Part shown: positions 32,999-64,000 of the stretch, one piece after another
How positions within the stretch are numbered: the stretch's first letter is position 1
Layout of the letters: each line of letters begins with the position of its first letter
Virus record (IMG/VR): IMGVR_UViG_3300033553_000052
Location: 1 to 64,000 of that record
Source of the DNA: a virus
Length of the DNA stretch: 64,000 nucleotides
Strand: one strand, 5' to 3'
Program-made: the position numbers and the translations under genes
Notes under the pieces: model-generated
Database searches by the model: none
What the model was told of the DNA's origin: nothing
Seen by the model: the letters and a program-made list of their open reading frames with translations, nothing else

Positions 32999-33241
32999 AT
33001 GAAAGACGAAGACATCGAACGTCAAGTAGAGGCGTGGCGCAAAGATATCGCCGAGGAGGAGGACCTGAATAAGTACATCAAGGAACTCAAGAAGGGTCTC
33101 ACGTGGAAGATGCGAGTTACGATGCTTCTTAACGTCGTGGCTACGGTCGTTATCTTTACTGTGCTGTTCTCGATTGTCGGGCTCTTTGCATGGCTCCTAA
33201 TCAAACTCCTACTTGCGGCCATTGCGAGCGTTGGCTCGTGA
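32999..33241 (+). CDS. Small membrane protein with cytoplasmic coiled coil
   Basis: 80 residues. A charged N-terminal helix (RQVEAWRKDIAEEEDLNKYI) is followed by one long or two tightly packed membrane helices (LLNVVATVVIFTVLF, GLFAWLLIKLLLAAI). Its stop overlaps the resolvase start. Function unknown. Confidence 0.6.
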   Translation: MKDEDIERQVEAWRKDIAEEEDLNKYIKELKKGLTWKMRVTMLLNVVATVVIFTVLFSIVGLFAWLLIKLLLAAIASVGS

Positions 33242-33780
33242 CAACCCCACTAGAACAGTGGTTCGTCTTTGATGTGAACCCTTACCCTTGGAAGGTTCCG
33301 CCCATTACGGCGGGTCGCAAGGGTAAGGGAGTGTTCCCGATTGTAGGCAGAGATGCCGGCCTTCACTCCTACAAGGAGGCGATCAAGGAACAACTCACAC
33401 GCATGCCGCACTGGAAAGTTGAAGGACCTGTCATTCTTCATTTGTGGTTCTATCGCAACGTCCCGACATACAAGACGCGCGCTGGGCGGCTAGCAAAGAA
33501 GCACGATGCCGACACAACGAACCTCCAGAAGGCAGCAGAGGATGCACTGCAGGGCTTCTTGTTCGACAACGACAGGGACGTTGTTCTTGTCATGTCGCAT
33601 CGTGTGGAGCAGTCAGGTGAGACCACTGGAATGCTAGTCGCCTGCGTTAAGCCATACGAGGGTAACGGCGTTCTATTCCCCGATGAAGTGCAGTCACAGA
33701 TTGATGAAATGAAAGCGAGATACGACTTCCCGCCGGACGACAGAAGTATCGAAAGCGACCCCGAAGACATCCCCTTCTAA
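33238..33780 (+). CDS. RusA-like Holliday junction resolvase with SSB-type tail
   Basis: 180 residues from the GTG at 33238, which overlaps the upstream stop by four bases; an ATG at 33190 would also be in frame. KKHDADTTNLQKAAEDALQG followed by FDNDRDV contains the acidic residues of RusA nucleases (D-x-D...N-x-x-K...D...D-x-D). It would cut four-way junctions during recombination or before packaging. The tail ESDPEDIPF is strikingly like the SSB C-terminal tip, not a RusA feature, and may compete for or recruit SSB-binding partners. Confidence 0.8.
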   Translation: MTTPLEQWFVFDVNPYPWKVPPITAGRKGKGVFPIVGRDAGLHSYKEAIKEQLTRMPHWKVEGPVILHLWFYRNVPTYKTRAGRLAKKHDADTTNLQKAAEDALQGFLFDNDRDVVLVMSHRVEQSGETTGMLVACVKPYEGNGVLFPDEVQSQIDEMKARYDFPPDDRSIESDPEDIPF

Positions 33781-33794
33781 TCATTGGAATAGCC

Positions 33795-34517
33795 TTGACA
33801 ACTCACGCTCTAATCTGGCACGGCGATGGCGTCGAGCTTAGCAAGAAGCTTAAGCCCGGCACCATCCAGTCTGTTATTACAGATCCTCCGTTCGGCGTTG
33901 ACAACCTCTCAAATATGGCGACCACCGCCGTGGGCAAGGAGTACGCCCGCAAGATTGCGAATGACGAATCGCCAGAACTGGCAATGGAGATCTTCACTAA
34001 GGTGATGGCGGCGCTGATTCCATCCATGAAGGACGAGTCGGACATTTACATCTTCACGGCCCATCAAGTGCTTGAAGAGTGGCTCGCATTCACCAGGGAA
34101 CTTCTCGAGCCGTACGGGTTCCGTCGCAAGGCCATACTGGTGTGGGAGAAGGACGGGCCTGGAATGGGCGACCTCAATACCTGGGGAATGGGTTGCGAGT
34201 TCATCCTTTACTACAAGCGTGGCAACCGGGAACGTGGTGCGGCAAGGCGCAACAACGTTCTTCACATCTCACAGTTGCGACCTAACGAGTTGATTCACCC
34301 GCACGAGAAGCCACAACAACTCCTCGAGTTACTGATCAAGCACTCGGTTAGCAAGGGAGACTGGATCGTTGATCCGTTCGCCGGCTCTGGAAGCCTTGTT
34401 AGGGCGGCGCGTGGCCTAGGCGTTAACAGCATTGGCATGGAGCTTGACGAAAAGAACTACACGCTCGCACTAAAGAAGCTCGAAGAAGGCGAGGGCGCAG
34501 GGTTCGACTTCGGCTAG
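33795..34517 (+). CDS. Beta-class DNA N6-adenine or N4-cytosine methyltransferase
   Basis: 240 residues, TTG start. The catalytic motif IV is TDPPFG near residue 30 and the cofactor motif I is DPFAGSG near 195; this order (IV before I) defines the beta class. No nuclease or specificity gene is adjacent, so it is an orphan enzyme, likely marking phage DNA against host restriction or for regulation. Base specificity cannot be told: DPPF fits both. Confidence 0.85.
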   Translation: MTTHALIWHGDGVELSKKLKPGTIQSVITDPPFGVDNLSNMATTAVGKEYARKIANDESPELAMEIFTKVMAALIPSMKDESDIYIFTAHQVLEEWLAFTRELLEPYGFRRKAILVWEKDGPGMGDLNTWGMGCEFILYYKRGNRERGAARRNNVLHISQLRPNELIHPHEKPQQLLELLIKHSVSKGDWIVDPFAGSGSLVRAARGLGVNSIGMELDEKNYTLALKKLEEGEGAGFDFG

Positions 34518-34623
34518 GAAATAAACTGGCGAGAGTCACTTGCAAATTGGTGCGCGGTGCGGCATGATAGGGCGTAGCATTACGGTGCCAGCATGTCAAC
34601 CCACGTCACAAGGAGCGTTACGA

Positions 34624-35144
34624 ATGTCAGAGGCAAGAGAAGTCCGGCCTGTAATCTTTGGTCAAACCGGAAGAGTGAGGACGGACTTCCGGCCACTTAA
34701 CGATCCGACAGTGGAGGAAGAGAAGCCCCTCCCAAAAGACGCACAGACTGGCTTGACCTCGCGGCCTGCGCAGGAACCGCCCCAAAGCGAAGGGGCAAAG
34801 AAGATGAAGTCCAAGACCCCTTCTTCATCGACAAGTTCGGCGGAGGCCACGCCGGAAAGCTCCAGTGCTTCTCTTGTCCCGTCGTTGCTGAGTGTGAAGA
34901 ATACAGAAGAAGTCGAGGAATCAGCCACGGACTCTGGGGCGGACGAAACGAAGCCGACCGAGGAGAAGAGCTGGACGACGACGGTTCCGGAGGATCAACT
35001 TCTTCCGACGCCGGGTCCGCCGACTCCGACGATTCCAAAGCTCCCCTTCTAGTAGACGAAAAGATAGACTCGTGGGTAGACTATCTTGACGACATAGAAG
35101 AACCAGACGACCCAGCCGCATTTGAGATAGACGAAGAAGATTAA
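34624..35144 (+). CDS. WhiB-like iron-sulphur regulator read by -1 frameshift
   Basis: The ATG at 34624 (AAGGAG upstream) opens a frame that gives 38 residues up to CCCAAAA (34731-34737). Slipping back one base there continues into RRTDWLDLAACAG, then LQCFSCPVVAECEEY and GISHGLWGGR, the WhiB signature: one Cys, then C-x2-C-x5-C, then the G-W-G-G turn. Four cysteines hold a 4Fe-4S cluster. An acidic tail follows, about 173 residues in all. The WhiB frame has a TAA just upstream and no start codon, so it cannot be made alone. Without slippage, ribosomes make a 142-residue low-complexity product ending at 35052. WhiB proteins bind the host primary sigma factor. Confidence 0.75.
34731..34737 (+). 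other. Slippery heptamer for -1 frameshifting
   Basis: C-CCA-AAA in the zero frame, the X-XXY-YYZ form. A hairpin GCGG...CCGC with inner CTG/CAG begins about 24 bases downstream (34761-34780), further than usual for a stimulator. Confidence 0.6.
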
Positions 35145-35153
35145 GGAAACCAA

Positions 35154-36317
35154 GTGCATCCAAAGACAATCTCGGCGTCGGCGCTAAATACAGCCGACAT
35201 GTGCCTTGCCAGGTACCAAGCAGAGAACATTCTGTTTACGCCAACCAACGCGGACAAGTCTGCCGCTAACGTTGGAACAGCCTGCCACGCGGCGCTGGAG
35301 AACTACGTCCGTATTGTCTATATGGAGAGGGCACAGAAGCCATCGTTTGATCTTCTCGGAACGCTGTACGATGTGGCGTTCAAGAAGACCTTCGACACGG
35401 TGGAAGCAAGCGGCCCGCTCTTTGATGACGGCTTCGACCTACTCAAGCGCTGGTTCCTTCGCACCGACTTGAGCGATGTCACCGTTGTCTCGGTTGAGAA
35501 GAAGACGCGGTTCCCTATTCCGACTAGCCAGGGCGACATTCCCTTTACCTACATCGTTGACAGGGTTGACCTGATTCAAGAGGGAGACCGAAAGATTCTC
35601 CGGATCGTTGACTACAAGACCATTCGGGCCTTCTTGTCACACGATGATGTGCGCGAGAAGCTTCAGGCTCGTGTATATGACTTGATGATGCGTATTGAGT
35701 GGAAGGGTCAGGGCATTGACGAGTTCCAAGTCGTGTTCGATCTGCTTCGACACGAGCAGGTTGGTGTTATCTTCAGTGCCGAAGAAGCAAAGGAAGCCTA
35801 CTACGGAATCATCGCAAGGGCAGAACGTATCCTTGCCACGCCAGACGAGAACCCACCAGAGACGCTAAACCCGGAGTGCCCGTACTGTGTTCGCAAGACA
35901 CAGTGCCGAGCGCTAAGGAAGAATATTCAGGGCGGCGGTCTATTCTCAATCCCCGACATCGACGCGGCAGTTGGCATGCGGCACGAACTTGACAGCCAGT
36001 CAAAGGGCCTCAAGTCAGCCATGGAGGAACTGGACTCGTACATCATCGAGTACTCGAAGCAGAACGACGCGCTGACGTTCACCACAGATGACGACCATCG
36101 GGTGACGATCTCCGCTCGCAAGACCAGGGACGTCAACAACACAACAGCCGCCTCGATACTTGGCCCCGAACTGATGAAGCGTTATGGCAAGATCGGAGTC
36201 GGGGACATTGACCAGATCATTAGGGATGAACTTGTTGACGCCGAGACTGCGGAGAAGTTACGCAAGGCAATCGGCTTCAAGCTGAGCGCCCCATCAATTA
36301 AGATCACAAAGAAATGA
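35154..36317 (+). CDS. Cas4/RecB-like PD-(D/E)XK nuclease with Fe-S cysteines
   Basis: 387 residues, GTG start behind AAGGAAACCAA. Core motifs: the Asp in DRVDLIQEGD and the DYKT lysine motif, with a Gln-x-x-x-Tyr type motif in LQARVYDLM. One Cys near residue 17 (DMCLARY) and CPYCVRKTQC near 245 form the four-cysteine iron-sulphur site of Cas4/AddB-type nucleases. The C-terminal 130 residues are extra, partly helical. Likely a single-strand exonuclease for recombination. No CRISPR genes are present, so a phage recombination role is preferred. Confidence 0.85.
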   Translation: MHPKTISASALNTADMCLARYQAENILFTPTNADKSAANVGTACHAALENYVRIVYMERAQKPSFDLLGTLYDVAFKKTFDTVEASGPLFDDGFDLLKRWFLRTDLSDVTVVSVEKKTRFPIPTSQGDIPFTYIVDRVDLIQEGDRKILRIVDYKTIRAFLSHDDVREKLQARVYDLMMRIEWKGQGIDEFQVVFDLLRHEQVGVIFSAEEAKEAYYGIIARAERILATPDENPPETLNPECPYCVRKTQCRALRKNIQGGGLFSIPDIDAAVGMRHELDSQSKGLKSAMEELDSYIIEYSKQNDALTFTTDDDHRVTISARKTRDVNNTTAASILGPELMKRYGKIGVGDIDQIIRDELVDAETAEKLRKAIGFKLSAPSIKITKK

Positions 36318-52911: not shown

Positions 52912-53018
52912 TAGATAACCTCGATGGTATTAACAGAGTTCTGGCGAGCTTTGTGCTTGATGTTTTTGCCAGCCGGGAGTAGACTCTCAACCTTGCTGGC
53001 CACAGCAGTATTGCTCAC
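52911..53018 (-). CDS. Tiny protein upstream of the tape measure
   Basis: 35 residues. GTG at 53018 behind AAAGGGGTCAAA, an excellent RBS; the stop overlaps the tape-measure ATG (TAATG). Basic, Ser/Asn-rich (AVASKVESLLPAGKNIKHKA). It could be a real tail accessory or a leader peptide that couples translation into the tape-measure gene. Confidence 0.5.
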   Translation of the reverse strand: MSNTAVASKVESLLPAGKNIKHKARQNSVNTIEVI

Positions 53019-53080
53019 TTTGACCCCTTTGGACTTTGCGTGGACTGTCCGTTAAGGGCCTCGTTGTGCCCGACAAGAAA

Positions 53081-53109
53081 AGAATAGACCGGACGCTGGC
53101 GATTGTCAA
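53081..53109 (-). promoter_or_regulatory. Promoter upstream of the tape-measure gene
   Basis: Minus strand: TTGACA (53109-53104), spacer 17, TATTCT (53086-53081). It can drive the tail and lysis genes separately from the head genes. Confidence 0.75.
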
Positions 53110-53145
53110 CCTGCGCCCGGCCTAAACGTACACATAGCCGAATAA

Positions 53146-53406
53146 CTACCTTGACCTACTTCTAGGCTTGTTGCTCTCGGCCTTTCGCTTTCTTTCGTCC
53201 TCCGCGTCCTTCTTTCCCTGGAGATCCCAAATAATCTCCCAGTACCGAAGGAGCTCTGGGTCCTGTGCGTAGACCCCGCCTTCCAATGGAAGGTGAGCCC
53301 ATTTCATTTTCGAGCATGTTGCAAACATTCTTATTGCACTATGCGGATTAGTTATGGGCTCACCATTCACAAAGTCTCTGGCCTGGCGAAGGAAGACTAT
53401 TCCCCC
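53146..53406 (-). CDS. Tail assembly chaperone, frameshift extension (gpT-like)
   Basis: In the -1 frame, 85 residues continue from the end of the 53397 gene (starting GIVFLRQARDFVNG) and end in a basic KPRSRSR tail. There is no start codon with RBS at its beginning. Slippage at GGGGGAA just before the TAG (53399-53397) would fuse it to the upstream protein, as in the lambda G/GT system. It is needed for loading the tape-measure protein. Confidence 0.7.
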   Translation of the reverse strand, partial: GGIVFLRQARDFVNGEPITNPHSAIRMFATCSKMKWAHLPLEGGVYAQDPELLRYWEIIWDLQGKKDAEDERKRKAESNKPRSRSR

Positions 53407-53924
53407 GCTTCCCTCTTGACTGCGGCCTCGCGAAGCTCGTTGAGGTTCTCGATCTCGCGATCAATGTCCTCGACCGTCATGTCAGTAAGGAGCCACGGGT
53501 TGTACTTGCGGCAGGCCTTCTCGATGCCCTCGACAATCACCGGGTCCGCCATGGCGAGCCACTTCTCGAAGCTGTTTGGACCCGCCTTCTGGTGGAAGTC
53601 CACAAGCTCCGGCTTGCCGTCGGAACCCTTCTTGAACATGTGCCAGCCGACGACACACGTCATAAGAAGCGCCTTGCGCTCTGCTGCCGGGTCAGCCTTA
53701 AGGCGAGCGTCACCAGTGTTCCTTGCGACAGTGATATCGCTTCGAGTGTCGTTCTGGTACTTGGACTTCTCTCCCTCGTTCATCTTCTTGATCTCGACGT
53801 ACTGCTCGCCGTCAGGAAGGAGGTGCTTCGTGGTATCCGAGAAGCCCCAGTAGTCAACGAACACCTGCTCTTCGGTTGCTACTCCGGCAGCTGCGGCTGC
53901 TTCTACGTCCATGTTGCTTTCCAT
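53397..53924 (-). CDS. Tail assembly chaperone (gpG-like)
   Basis: 175 residues behind AAGGAGGGCCAATA. Acidic N-terminus, then a helical domain (KKMNEGEKSKYQNDTRSDI) as in actinophage tail chaperones. It lies between the major tail protein and the tape measure, the standard place, and has a frameshift site at its end. Its role is to coat the tape measure and drive tail-tube assembly. Confidence 0.8.
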   Translation of the reverse strand: MESNMDVEAAAAAGVATEEQVFVDYWGFSDTTKHLLPDGEQYVEIKKMNEGEKSKYQNDTRSDITVARNTGDARLKADPAAERKALLMTCVVGWHMFKKGSDGKPELVDFHQKAGPNSFEKWLAMADPVIVEGIEKACRKYNPWLLTDMTVEDIDREIENLNELREAAVKREAGE

Positions 53925-61752: not shown

Positions 61753-64000
61753 TCATTTATGCCAAGATGGGAACTGCGGCCCTTGGGGCGTTGGAGCCGT
61801 TGGGGGTATCGGCGCGCTTAGCCCAGATAGTCCGGCAAGCAGTCCGCCATAGCCTCCGTCAAGAGCTCCGCTAGAGCCGATACTAAAGGGCTCTCTTTTA
61901 TCTGAAGCAGTCGGCTCACCATACCCGGTTCTAGCGACGCGCGCAACGCGACGATACTGCCGGTCGCCCATTAGGGTATAGACCACGCCTGCCAAACAGT
62001 CTGCCACGTCCTTCGATCCACCTTGCGGGTGATCGACCTTGTGCCCAGACTCTGAAAGTTCACGCAGTTCCTTGTTGGCTATGTTCACCTTTGTTACGTC
62101 GCCACGATTGAGGAACGTAATATACTCTGGCCACTCTACACGACGCTCGTAGATAGCCTCGCGTAGATCGTAGTACGGCGCGGTAGTCTTATCCACTGAC
62201 AAGTAGTCGGACGGGATCTTCCTCTTGTTGAGCTGCTGCCTCGTGTCAGTGCTGTTGTGAACGAAAACTCCGGACTCAAGTGCGAAGTTCTGATGCGTCT
62301 CTATTGACAGGTCGTACACGTCCTCAACATCACCCATGCGCACGACCTTTACGACCTTATGGTTGTTAGCGGCGATGTGCATCTTCCTAAACTCAGCCCA
62401 ACCTCTAAACCCATTCTCGCGCAGACGAGCGTAAATAATATCCTGAGACCAGCCGGTCTGGAGGGTCACCTCGCGACGGGATAAATGAGCATACGCACGT
62501 AAGTCTTCAATCGTTACATCGAGCCTACGTCGTCGCGCATCTAAGCCAGTACGCTCTGTGTTGGACTTCGAGATAGCAGTACCAACTGATTCTCTGCGCT
62601 CATCGGTCCAAAATTCAGAACGGTTGTGATGTGCATTATGTTCGCTGCGCAAGATAACATCAAGGTTACTCGGATCATTGTTTAGCTTATTGTGATCCTT
62701 GTGGTGACGAATGAATCCTTCAGGCGCTTCGCCGGCAATCGCTCTGTGAGTGTACTGCCAGCGCAACGAGGTTGCAGAGGTCGGCTGCGCGATCTGCTCG
62801 TAACTTTCAATTATCTGGCGATACAGTGGCATTAAGGACTGGCCACTTAGTAAATCTTGCGCCTCGACATAAGAACCGTTACGCAGCATGAACCTATGAT
62901 CAGGCGTGCATCTAATTACCTCACCATTATCAAGGTGAACCTCAAGCACTTCCTTGGTGCTTGTTTTCCACGCCTTCTGAAGTTTACCAGCAGTTATCTT
63001 CCCGGTAGCACTATCAACAGTGTAAGTACTCACGCCACCCTCGGGATAGAGTTCTGCAAGTTCCTTCATTGTCAAAACCCTGCCATCAAACAATGGCACC
63101 CGCGTATCTCCCGTGAGACACTGGAACCCGTCCATGGTGACCTTCGCGAGCTTGAACTTTCTTTCGTCCGCTATCTCATACAAGATGCGACGAATGTCTC
63201 CGAGGATGATCTCTGTACCTGGTGCAGCTTTGATTCGCATAAGGAAGTCAAAGGTAATGTAAGGCTTAAGTTCGTCTTCGATTTCAACTAGACCACTCAC
63301 GTGACCCATCGCGAGGCCCAATGCGTCTCCGTTTGCGGACACGGCAATGTCGATATGTGCGACTCTCTTTATTGTGTCGGTAGCAACTACCTCGCGATGC
63401 AGTGAAGGATGCACCGGGTCCGACCCCACGGGGACGTACGCGGGCGATTCCTGGTCGCGGTGCGAAGCCTCCCAGCGTTCGTGGCATTCGTCTATGCGAT
63501 CAACCAGGGAGATGAACGGCGAGTCTGCAGCCGGAGGAATACCGGCCAGGTCGCGTAGCGCCTTCTCGGGGTTGTTCTTAAAGCTCGCGAGGTACGACAG
63601 TGGAACCTCAATAATGAATGCGCTATCAACAAGCCCCGCCGCCAACTTGGGGACCACGGACTTACGTCTCGTGTCATAGTAGAAAGACTTTCGATTACCA
63701 TCTTCGTCCGTGAACTTATCCCACCCCAGAGATTCCCAGATAGCCATCGTCACAACGAGCGCTTCCGGGTCCTTCTCGAGCTCTTCTTTTTTCTTTTGCA
63801 TGAAGCCAGACGTCTTCTTCATCTGGCCGATTACAATAAGAAGTCCACGGTGCTGTCCGGTTGTCGCGTCGTTAAACCGAGAGTCAATTCTTGCGTGGAT
63901 TGTGTCATACCCGGACTCCGCAAAATCTTTGTTGGCGGTCTGCTTATGCGAGTCACCCTCATCAAGGATGCCGCCAAGAATGTTATACCCCTCGAACGAT
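61753..64000 (-). CDS. Terminase large subunit interrupted by an intein, 5' end beyond window
   Basis: The frame stays open past the ATG at 63822 to the window edge, so that ATG is not the start. The edge sequence includes GGILDEGDSH, a Walker B-like acidic motif of the packaging ATPase. The nuclease domain has HIDIAVSANGD (first Asp), the Asp of TMDGFQ/STD at the intein junction, and GGSKDVADCLAG (last Asp). The spliced protein translocates and cuts DNA at the portal. The ATPase N-terminus lies outside. Confidence 0.85.
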   Translation of the reverse strand, partial: SFEGYNILGGILDEGDSHKQTANKDFAESGYDTIHARIDSRFNDATTGQHRGLLIVIGQMKKTSGFMQKKKEELEKDPEALVVTMAIWESLGWDKFTDEDGNRKSFYYDTRRKSVVPKLAAGLVDSAFIIEVPLSYLASFKNNPEKALRDLAGIPPAADSPFISLVDRIDECHERWEASHRDQESPAYVPVGSDPVHPSLHREVVATDTIKRVAHIDIAVSANGDALGLAMGHVSGLVEIEDELKPYITFDFLMRIKAAPGTEIILGDIRRILYEIADERKFKLAKVTMDGFQCLTGDTRVPLFDGRVLTMKELAELYPEGGVSTYTVDSATGKITAGKLQKAWKTSTKEVLEVHLDNGEVIRCTPDHRFMLRNGSYVEAQDLLSGQSLMPLYRQIIESYEQIAQPTSATSLRWQYTHRAIAGEAPEGFIRHHKDHNKLNNDPSNLDVILRSEHNAHHNRSEFWTDERRESVGTAISKSNTERTGLDARRRRLDVTIEDLRAYAHLSRREVTLQTGWSQDIIYARLRENGFRGWAEFRKMHIAANNHKVVKVVRMGDVEDVYDLSIETHQNFALESGVFVHNSTDTRQQLNKRKIPSDYLSVDKTTAPYYDLREAIYERRVEWPEYITFLNRGDVTKVNIANKELRELSESGHKVDHPQGGSKDVADCLAGVVYTLMGDRQYRRVARVARTGYGEPTASDKREPFSIGSSGALDGGYGGLLAGLSGLSAPIPPTAPTPQGPQFPSWHK
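62254..63120 (-). other. Intein with HNH homing endonuclease
   Basis: 289 residues inserted between ...TMDGFQ and STDTRQ. It begins CLTGDTRVPL (block A, catalytic Cys), has IRCTPDHRFML (block B, T-x-x-H), and ends VYDLSIETHQNFAL then GVFVHN before Ser (blocks F and G, C-terminal Asn and +1 Ser). The middle carries HHKDHNKLNNDPSNL and HNAHH, an HNH endonuclease. All splicing residues are intact. Confidence 0.9.

Follow-up and report, generated by a model that had tools for sequence, protein, structure and literature searches.

A phage WhiB-family regulator probably expressed by -1 ribosomal frameshifting from an overlapping leader gene

How does a phage produce a regulator whose reading frame offers no place to start? 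The window analysed here (bases 1-64000 of a 65,204-base IMG/VR virus record, G+C 54.8%) contains among others portal, protease, tape-measure, sliding-clamp, RusA, methylase and nuclease genes. Among the genes for DNA metabolism lies a frame with the signature of WhiB proteins, which is closed upstream by a TAA and from 34701 onwards has no ATG, GTG or TTG ahead of its first cysteine. It overlaps a leader ORF, whose frame we call frame 0 and whose leader carries a DFRP motif common to its relatives. According to the original prediction, ribosomes that translate the leader ORF slip back by one base at a CCCAAAA heptamer and thereby enter the WhiB frame. The features on which this was built are all found in the sequence: the stop and the missing start in the WhiB frame; a good ribosome binding site (AAGGAG) ahead of the leader ATG; a heptamer that reads C CCA AAA in the phase of the leader ORF; a predicted slipped product of 38 + 135 = 173 amino acids, in which 38 leader residues are joined to the complete WhiB domain matching PF02467; and an unslipped product of 142 amino acids with a Ser/Pro/Glu-rich tail, ending at 35052. 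Apart from slippage, the sequence shows no route to the WhiB domain, of which this phage has just one. We assign a probability of roughly 0.92 to the reading that one gene is decoded in two ways and that a leader-WhiB fusion is made through -1 slippage at the heptamer. The features of the locus are collected in Table 1.

Table 1. Features of the leader-WhiB locus and its neighbours (positions in the window)
Feature	Position	Strand	Basis or remark
RusA-like resolvase, conserved neighbour	33190..33780	+	
DNA methyltransferase, neighbour conserved in part of the group	33795..34517	+	
Shine-Dalgarno sequence AAGGAG of the leader ORF, 8 nt before ATG 34624	34610..34615	+	sequence
Frame-0 ORF from ATG 34624, 142 aa unslipped: 38-residue leader, then Ser/Pro/Glu-rich tail	34624..35052	+	
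TAA closing the -1 frame upstream of the WhiB domain	34698..34700	+	
Internal Shine-Dalgarno-like element GTGGAGGA, 12 nt before the heptamer; proposed stimulator	34711..34718	+	enrichment across 23 loci
Slippery heptamer C_CCA_AAA, in phase	34731..34737	+	sequence; conserved in relatives
-1-frame extension including WhiB domain and long acidic tail	34737..35144	+	ends with TAA at 35144
WhiB (Wbl) domain, PF02467	34749..34964	+	
Cas4/RecB-like PD-(D/E)XK nuclease, conserved downstream neighbour	35154..36317	+	

The domain belongs to the WhiB family by sequence and predicted fold. The -1 frame bears the four-cysteine signature (W-x5-C, then C-x2-C-x5-C) followed by the turn GLWGGR, and it matches PF02467 with an E value of 1.5e-8 (35.5 bits, cut-off 23.6), the sole match to this family in the whole virus record. 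Its protein was modelled as a Wbl fold. Every one of the 14 PDB matches of the model was a WhiB protein (best E 3.7e-3); most of these structures are complexes that also contain sigma-A region 4 or RNA polymerase. The mean pLDDT of the model was only 67, with 77-91 in the core and modest confidence outside it. By analogy with these proteins, the leader-WhiB fusion probably holds a 4Fe-4S cluster and binds the principal sigma factor of the host at its region 4.

In 27 other genes of the same phage, comprising 12,237 codons, in-phase heptamers of the type X_XXY_YYZ occurred 18 times (0.15%) and in-phase CCCAAAA not once. Between the TAA and the WhiB tryptophan there is room for about 16 codons, in which a heptamer would arise by chance with a probability of roughly 2%. 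This figure is unconvincing alone; conservation in relatives is the decisive evidence. As an observation on the window as a whole, the frequency of in-phase X_XXY_YYZ in its 27 larger genes (0.15% of codons) compares with 0.39% expected at equal base frequencies, which hints that these genes avoid slippery sites.

Relatives were collected by tblastn with the WhiB frame, which led to Gordonia phages, and then by scans of IMG/VR, which added nine uncultivated viruses. The stretches matched by tblastn in the Gordonia phages were unannotated or belonged to a truncated gene. The same layout was present in 24 further genomes, namely phages of Gordonia, Rhodococcus and Tsukamurella and the nine uncultivated viruses. 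In each, a leader ORF (mostly bearing a DFRP-like motif) contains the heptamer in phase, and a conserved -1-frame protein begins exactly at this CCCAAAA or CCCTTTA; where checked, a Cas4/RecB-like nuclease gene adjoins the locus. The heptamer was found in phase at the junction in all 24 tabulated loci including the window, as CCCAAAA in 19 and as CCCTTTA in five. The corresponding consensus sequences of the -1 frame are PKR[LI][IV]C[TS]G[IV]C...CxCGEG...WhiB and PFRC[TN]G[IV]C...CxCGEG...WhiB. CCCTTTA encodes Pro-Phe in frame -1 and Pro-Leu in frame 0. Since these are other amino acids, it is the slipperiness that is conserved rather than a Pro-Lys motif. The -1-frame stop abuts the heptamer in Orchid, GordTnk2 and one uncultivated virus (L048) and lies 3 nt away from it in GMA3 and Jumbo, so that no room is left for another entry upstream.

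Part of the IMG/VR scans was anchored on the heptamer or its peptide, and these scans therefore do not test its conservation. A scan with peptide patterns away from the slip site recovered four loci, and the heptamer was present in all of them. Trogglehumper, a Rhodococcus phage that PMC13313380 mentions as a relative, was kept out of pattern discovery; early in its leader ORF it has an in-phase CCCAAAA, followed by PKILICTGIC...WhiB, which brings the total to 25 loci including the window. These are not 25 independent events, as for example Monty and PokyPuppy are close, and the layout counts cover part of the 117 phage records listed by a search with the neighbouring nuclease. A single continuous frame, which would have spoken against the original prediction, was not found among the orthologues at this locus. 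All but one (L002) have overlapping frames and the in-phase heptamer. The exception lacks both the heptamer and the CTGxC...CxCGEG module and has two separate ORFs, the WhiB one starting from its own TTG behind a Shine-Dalgarno sequence; by its sequence, it shows another way of expressing a WhiB protein. The search of homologues for CCCAAAA and both frames that had been proposed for the window was thus positive, and it also brought up CCCTTTA, the cysteine module and a Shine-Dalgarno-like element upstream of the heptamer.

The window itself stands somewhat apart. Its nuclease had no relatives in IMG/VR, its WhiB frame matched only L002 there, and megablast of the window from 33 to 37 kb against phages gave no match. 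The CCCAAAA-anchored pattern had no match in a collection of bacterial and archaeal genomes, i. e. no prophage copies were seen. An unannotated WhiB gene was noticed in Actinomycetia phage DSL-LC01 (L005 1501-1755), where it is an ordinary ORF, seemingly with its own ATG.

Which frame is under selection was read from substitutions counted over seven pairs of relatives. Upstream of the heptamer, 61, 57 and 144 substitutions fell on frame-0 positions 1, 2 and 3. In the overlap of the frames the counts were 32, 74 and 58, and behind the frame-0 stop 44, 149 and 53, i. e. there they concentrated on the third positions of the -1 frame. The third-position excess moves from frame 0 to frame -1, and hence the selected reading frame changes across the site. 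By this strong bias the -1 frame is under purifying selection in the relatives, from which all of these figures come, the window being without a close relative. In the window, codon usage in the overlap gave 11.7 for frame 0, 8.1 for frame -1 and -63.7 for frame +1, and it clearly favours the -1 frame only after 35052. Taken together, the conserved heptamer, the frame-switching selection and the upstream element strongly support the frameshift that had been predicted, as far as sequence comparison can.

The alternative that survives best, although we consider it improbable, is that WhiB is translated alone, from a non-canonical start or by re-initiation in the -1 frame, and that the overlap with the leader is incidental. 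The separate WhiB ORF of L002 with its TTG and Shine-Dalgarno sequence would fit this, as would the ATG just ahead of the WhiB domain in GordTnk2, GMA3 and Jumbo; annotators in effect treated most relatives in this way. However, in 19 of the 24 loci (the window and 18 others) the -1 frame offers neither ATG nor GTG nor TTG ahead of the WhiB tryptophan, and independent initiation leaves the in-phase heptamer at the junction of every such locus unexplained. Moreover, the protein is conserved back to the heptamer, including CTGxC and CxCGEG, and thus upstream of every proposed internal start. For want of a start codon we reject independent initiation for the window and most relatives. In four Gordonia relatives a -1-frame start codon lies behind the heptamer, and there a short form of WhiB may also be made.

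Frameshifting at the heptamer, the reading we prefer, may be helped by a stimulator. Across 23 loci a Shine-Dalgarno-like element upstream of the heptamer had a mean pairing energy of -4.8, versus -2.8 +/- 0.3 in codon shuffles. None of 500 codon shuffles was as strong as the real element, nor was any of 500 local 12-codon shuffles. From this enrichment we infer a candidate stimulator. Directly downstream of the site the folding energy showed a weak dip (mean z -0.8, pseudoknot-free folding), and sliding z-scores and RNAalifold gave no convincing consensus for a conserved 3' RNA structure. Shine-Dalgarno-like sequences upstream of the site are known to stimulate -1 frameshifting in bacteria (PMC4066793; PMC10885494). 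In Escherichia coli both CCCAAAA and CCCTTTA shift detectably in the absence of stimulators, and the genes of this bacterium avoid them (PMC4066793).

The frame could also change in the mRNA, by transcriptional slippage at the run of four A in the site. Here the codon phase, which exactly fits tandem tRNA slippage, and the upstream Shine-Dalgarno-like element point to the ribosome instead. Polymerase slippage is known from runs far longer than four A, or three T in the CCCTTTA group. Because the run is too short, we reject this very unlikely explanation. Least probable of all is that one base was lost or gained in sequencing or assembly, or that a decaying gene has suffered a frameshift mutation. 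The metagenomic origin of the record and the position between short runs of C and A might suggest this, but for the family it is excluded: many phages that were isolated and sequenced independently have the same break at the corresponding position, and the -1 frame shows a strong third-position bias in relatives.

How might ribosomal slippage operate at this locus? Having initiated at ATG 34624, ribosomes would translate the leader as far as C_CCA_AAA, where most of them would stay in frame 0 and yield the 142-residue protein of leader and disordered tail. Judged by the family-wide enrichment, GTGGAGGA upstream of the site could pair with 16S rRNA and hold a fraction of the ribosomes, which would then slip back by one base while the Pro and Lys tRNAs re-pair with CCC and AAA. 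The slipped ribosomes would read on in the -1 frame and produce the 173-residue leader-WhiB fusion. This fusion may alter host transcription during infection, and frameshifting may limit it to a small, constant proportion relative to the leader protein.

In most relatives the fusion would contain one more part, a cysteine module CTGxC...CxCGEG between the slip site and WhiB. The window has no such module; its slip codons are soon followed by the WhiB tryptophan, and in place of the module there is a long acidic tail. For the module (e. g. L021 2001-2240) neither a separate Pfam family nor a clear fold match was found; it may be a metal-binding domain.

The annotation of the relatives does not reflect this arrangement. 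WhiB is unannotated in Orchid, Camerico, PokyPuppy, GMA7 and TIN3, and its annotated start lies too late in GordTnk2, GMA3, Jumbo, Monty and ReqiDocB7. The leader ORF is labelled 'hypothetical' or 'endonuclease'. The latter label belongs to PHROG 6890, the frame-0 product of the CCCTTTA group (L018 893-1315 and relatives), and is repeated by RefSeq. This product is of low complexity, with no nuclease domain among the matches seen, and from its sequence the label looks doubtful.

Each component is already known separately: programmed frameshifting by -1, WhiB genes in phages, and phage tail genes that are read by frameshifting. With dnaX and the IS3-family transposases, the present locus shares an in-phase X_XXY_YYZ, a second ORF in the -1 frame and a Shine-Dalgarno-like element few bases upstream. 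It differs from them in that the -1 frame encodes a WhiB-family regulator, that the heptamers are CCCAAAA and CCCTTTA, and that pseudoknot-free folding showed no conserved downstream hairpin. With the tail-assembly chaperones (G/GT) of siphophages it has in common a conserved frameshift that gives a longer fusion from two overlapping ORFs; such a chaperone frameshift also occurs in these Gordonia phages (PMC4524720). Yet gene, location and product are different here. Tail-assembly chaperones are recognised by homology and by a position just ahead of the tape-measure gene; the WhiB locus does not fit this, as it sits among genes for DNA metabolism, and the window's own chaperone is encoded elsewhere (53397-53924, minus strand). 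That chaperone ORF belongs to PHROG 3096 (E 3e-56) and has an open -1 frame behind it (region 52950-53924), which could give a longer form; the overlap contains a G run (GCGGGGGAATAG) and no standard in-phase heptamer. Another observation from the window concerns the likely large terminase gene (61753-63822, minus strand; terminase match weak, E 0.0095), which by its sequence appears to hold an intein: residues 244-523 match Pfam Intein_splicing (E 2.4e-22), with an HNH endonuclease inside.

Mycobacteriophage TM4 encodes a comparable WhiB protein, with the same four-cysteine domain and G[LI]W turn in an actinobacteriophage. Rybniker et al. (2010), as relayed in PMC8612146, describe it as a repressor of host whiB2 with a link to superinfection exclusion. 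What sets the present domain apart is that frameshifting would join it to a leader and, in most relatives, also to the CTGxC...CxCGEG module; the mycobacteriophage WhiB genes L019 and L020, unlike the window locus, have their own starts. In line with the original prediction, WhiB is not known to be expressed by frameshifting: no report combining WhiB with programmed frameshifting was found in the openly accessible literature. It is absent from the phage WhiB survey (PMC8612146), the GMA3/GMA7 paper (PMC4524720) and the Rhodococcus phage paper (PMC13313380), and was not found in the passages considered of the PRFect paper (PMC10885494).

For the phages concerned, the gene models of many sequenced genomes would be corrected, and work with the annotated short WhiB proteins would be work with a truncated protein. 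The claim is directly testable, since culturable relatives grow on Gordonia terrae and Rhodococcus. A further idea, which we regard as rather unlikely, gives slippage the role of a control point: how often it occurs would depend on the condition of the infected cell, and the leader protein made without slippage would have a function too, perhaps in partnership with the fusion or as its antagonist. If so, the locus would be a two-protein switch, set at translation, that acts on host transcription. The frameshift itself would add a transcriptional regulator to the tail chaperones and transposases for which conserved programmed frameshifting is established in tailed phages.
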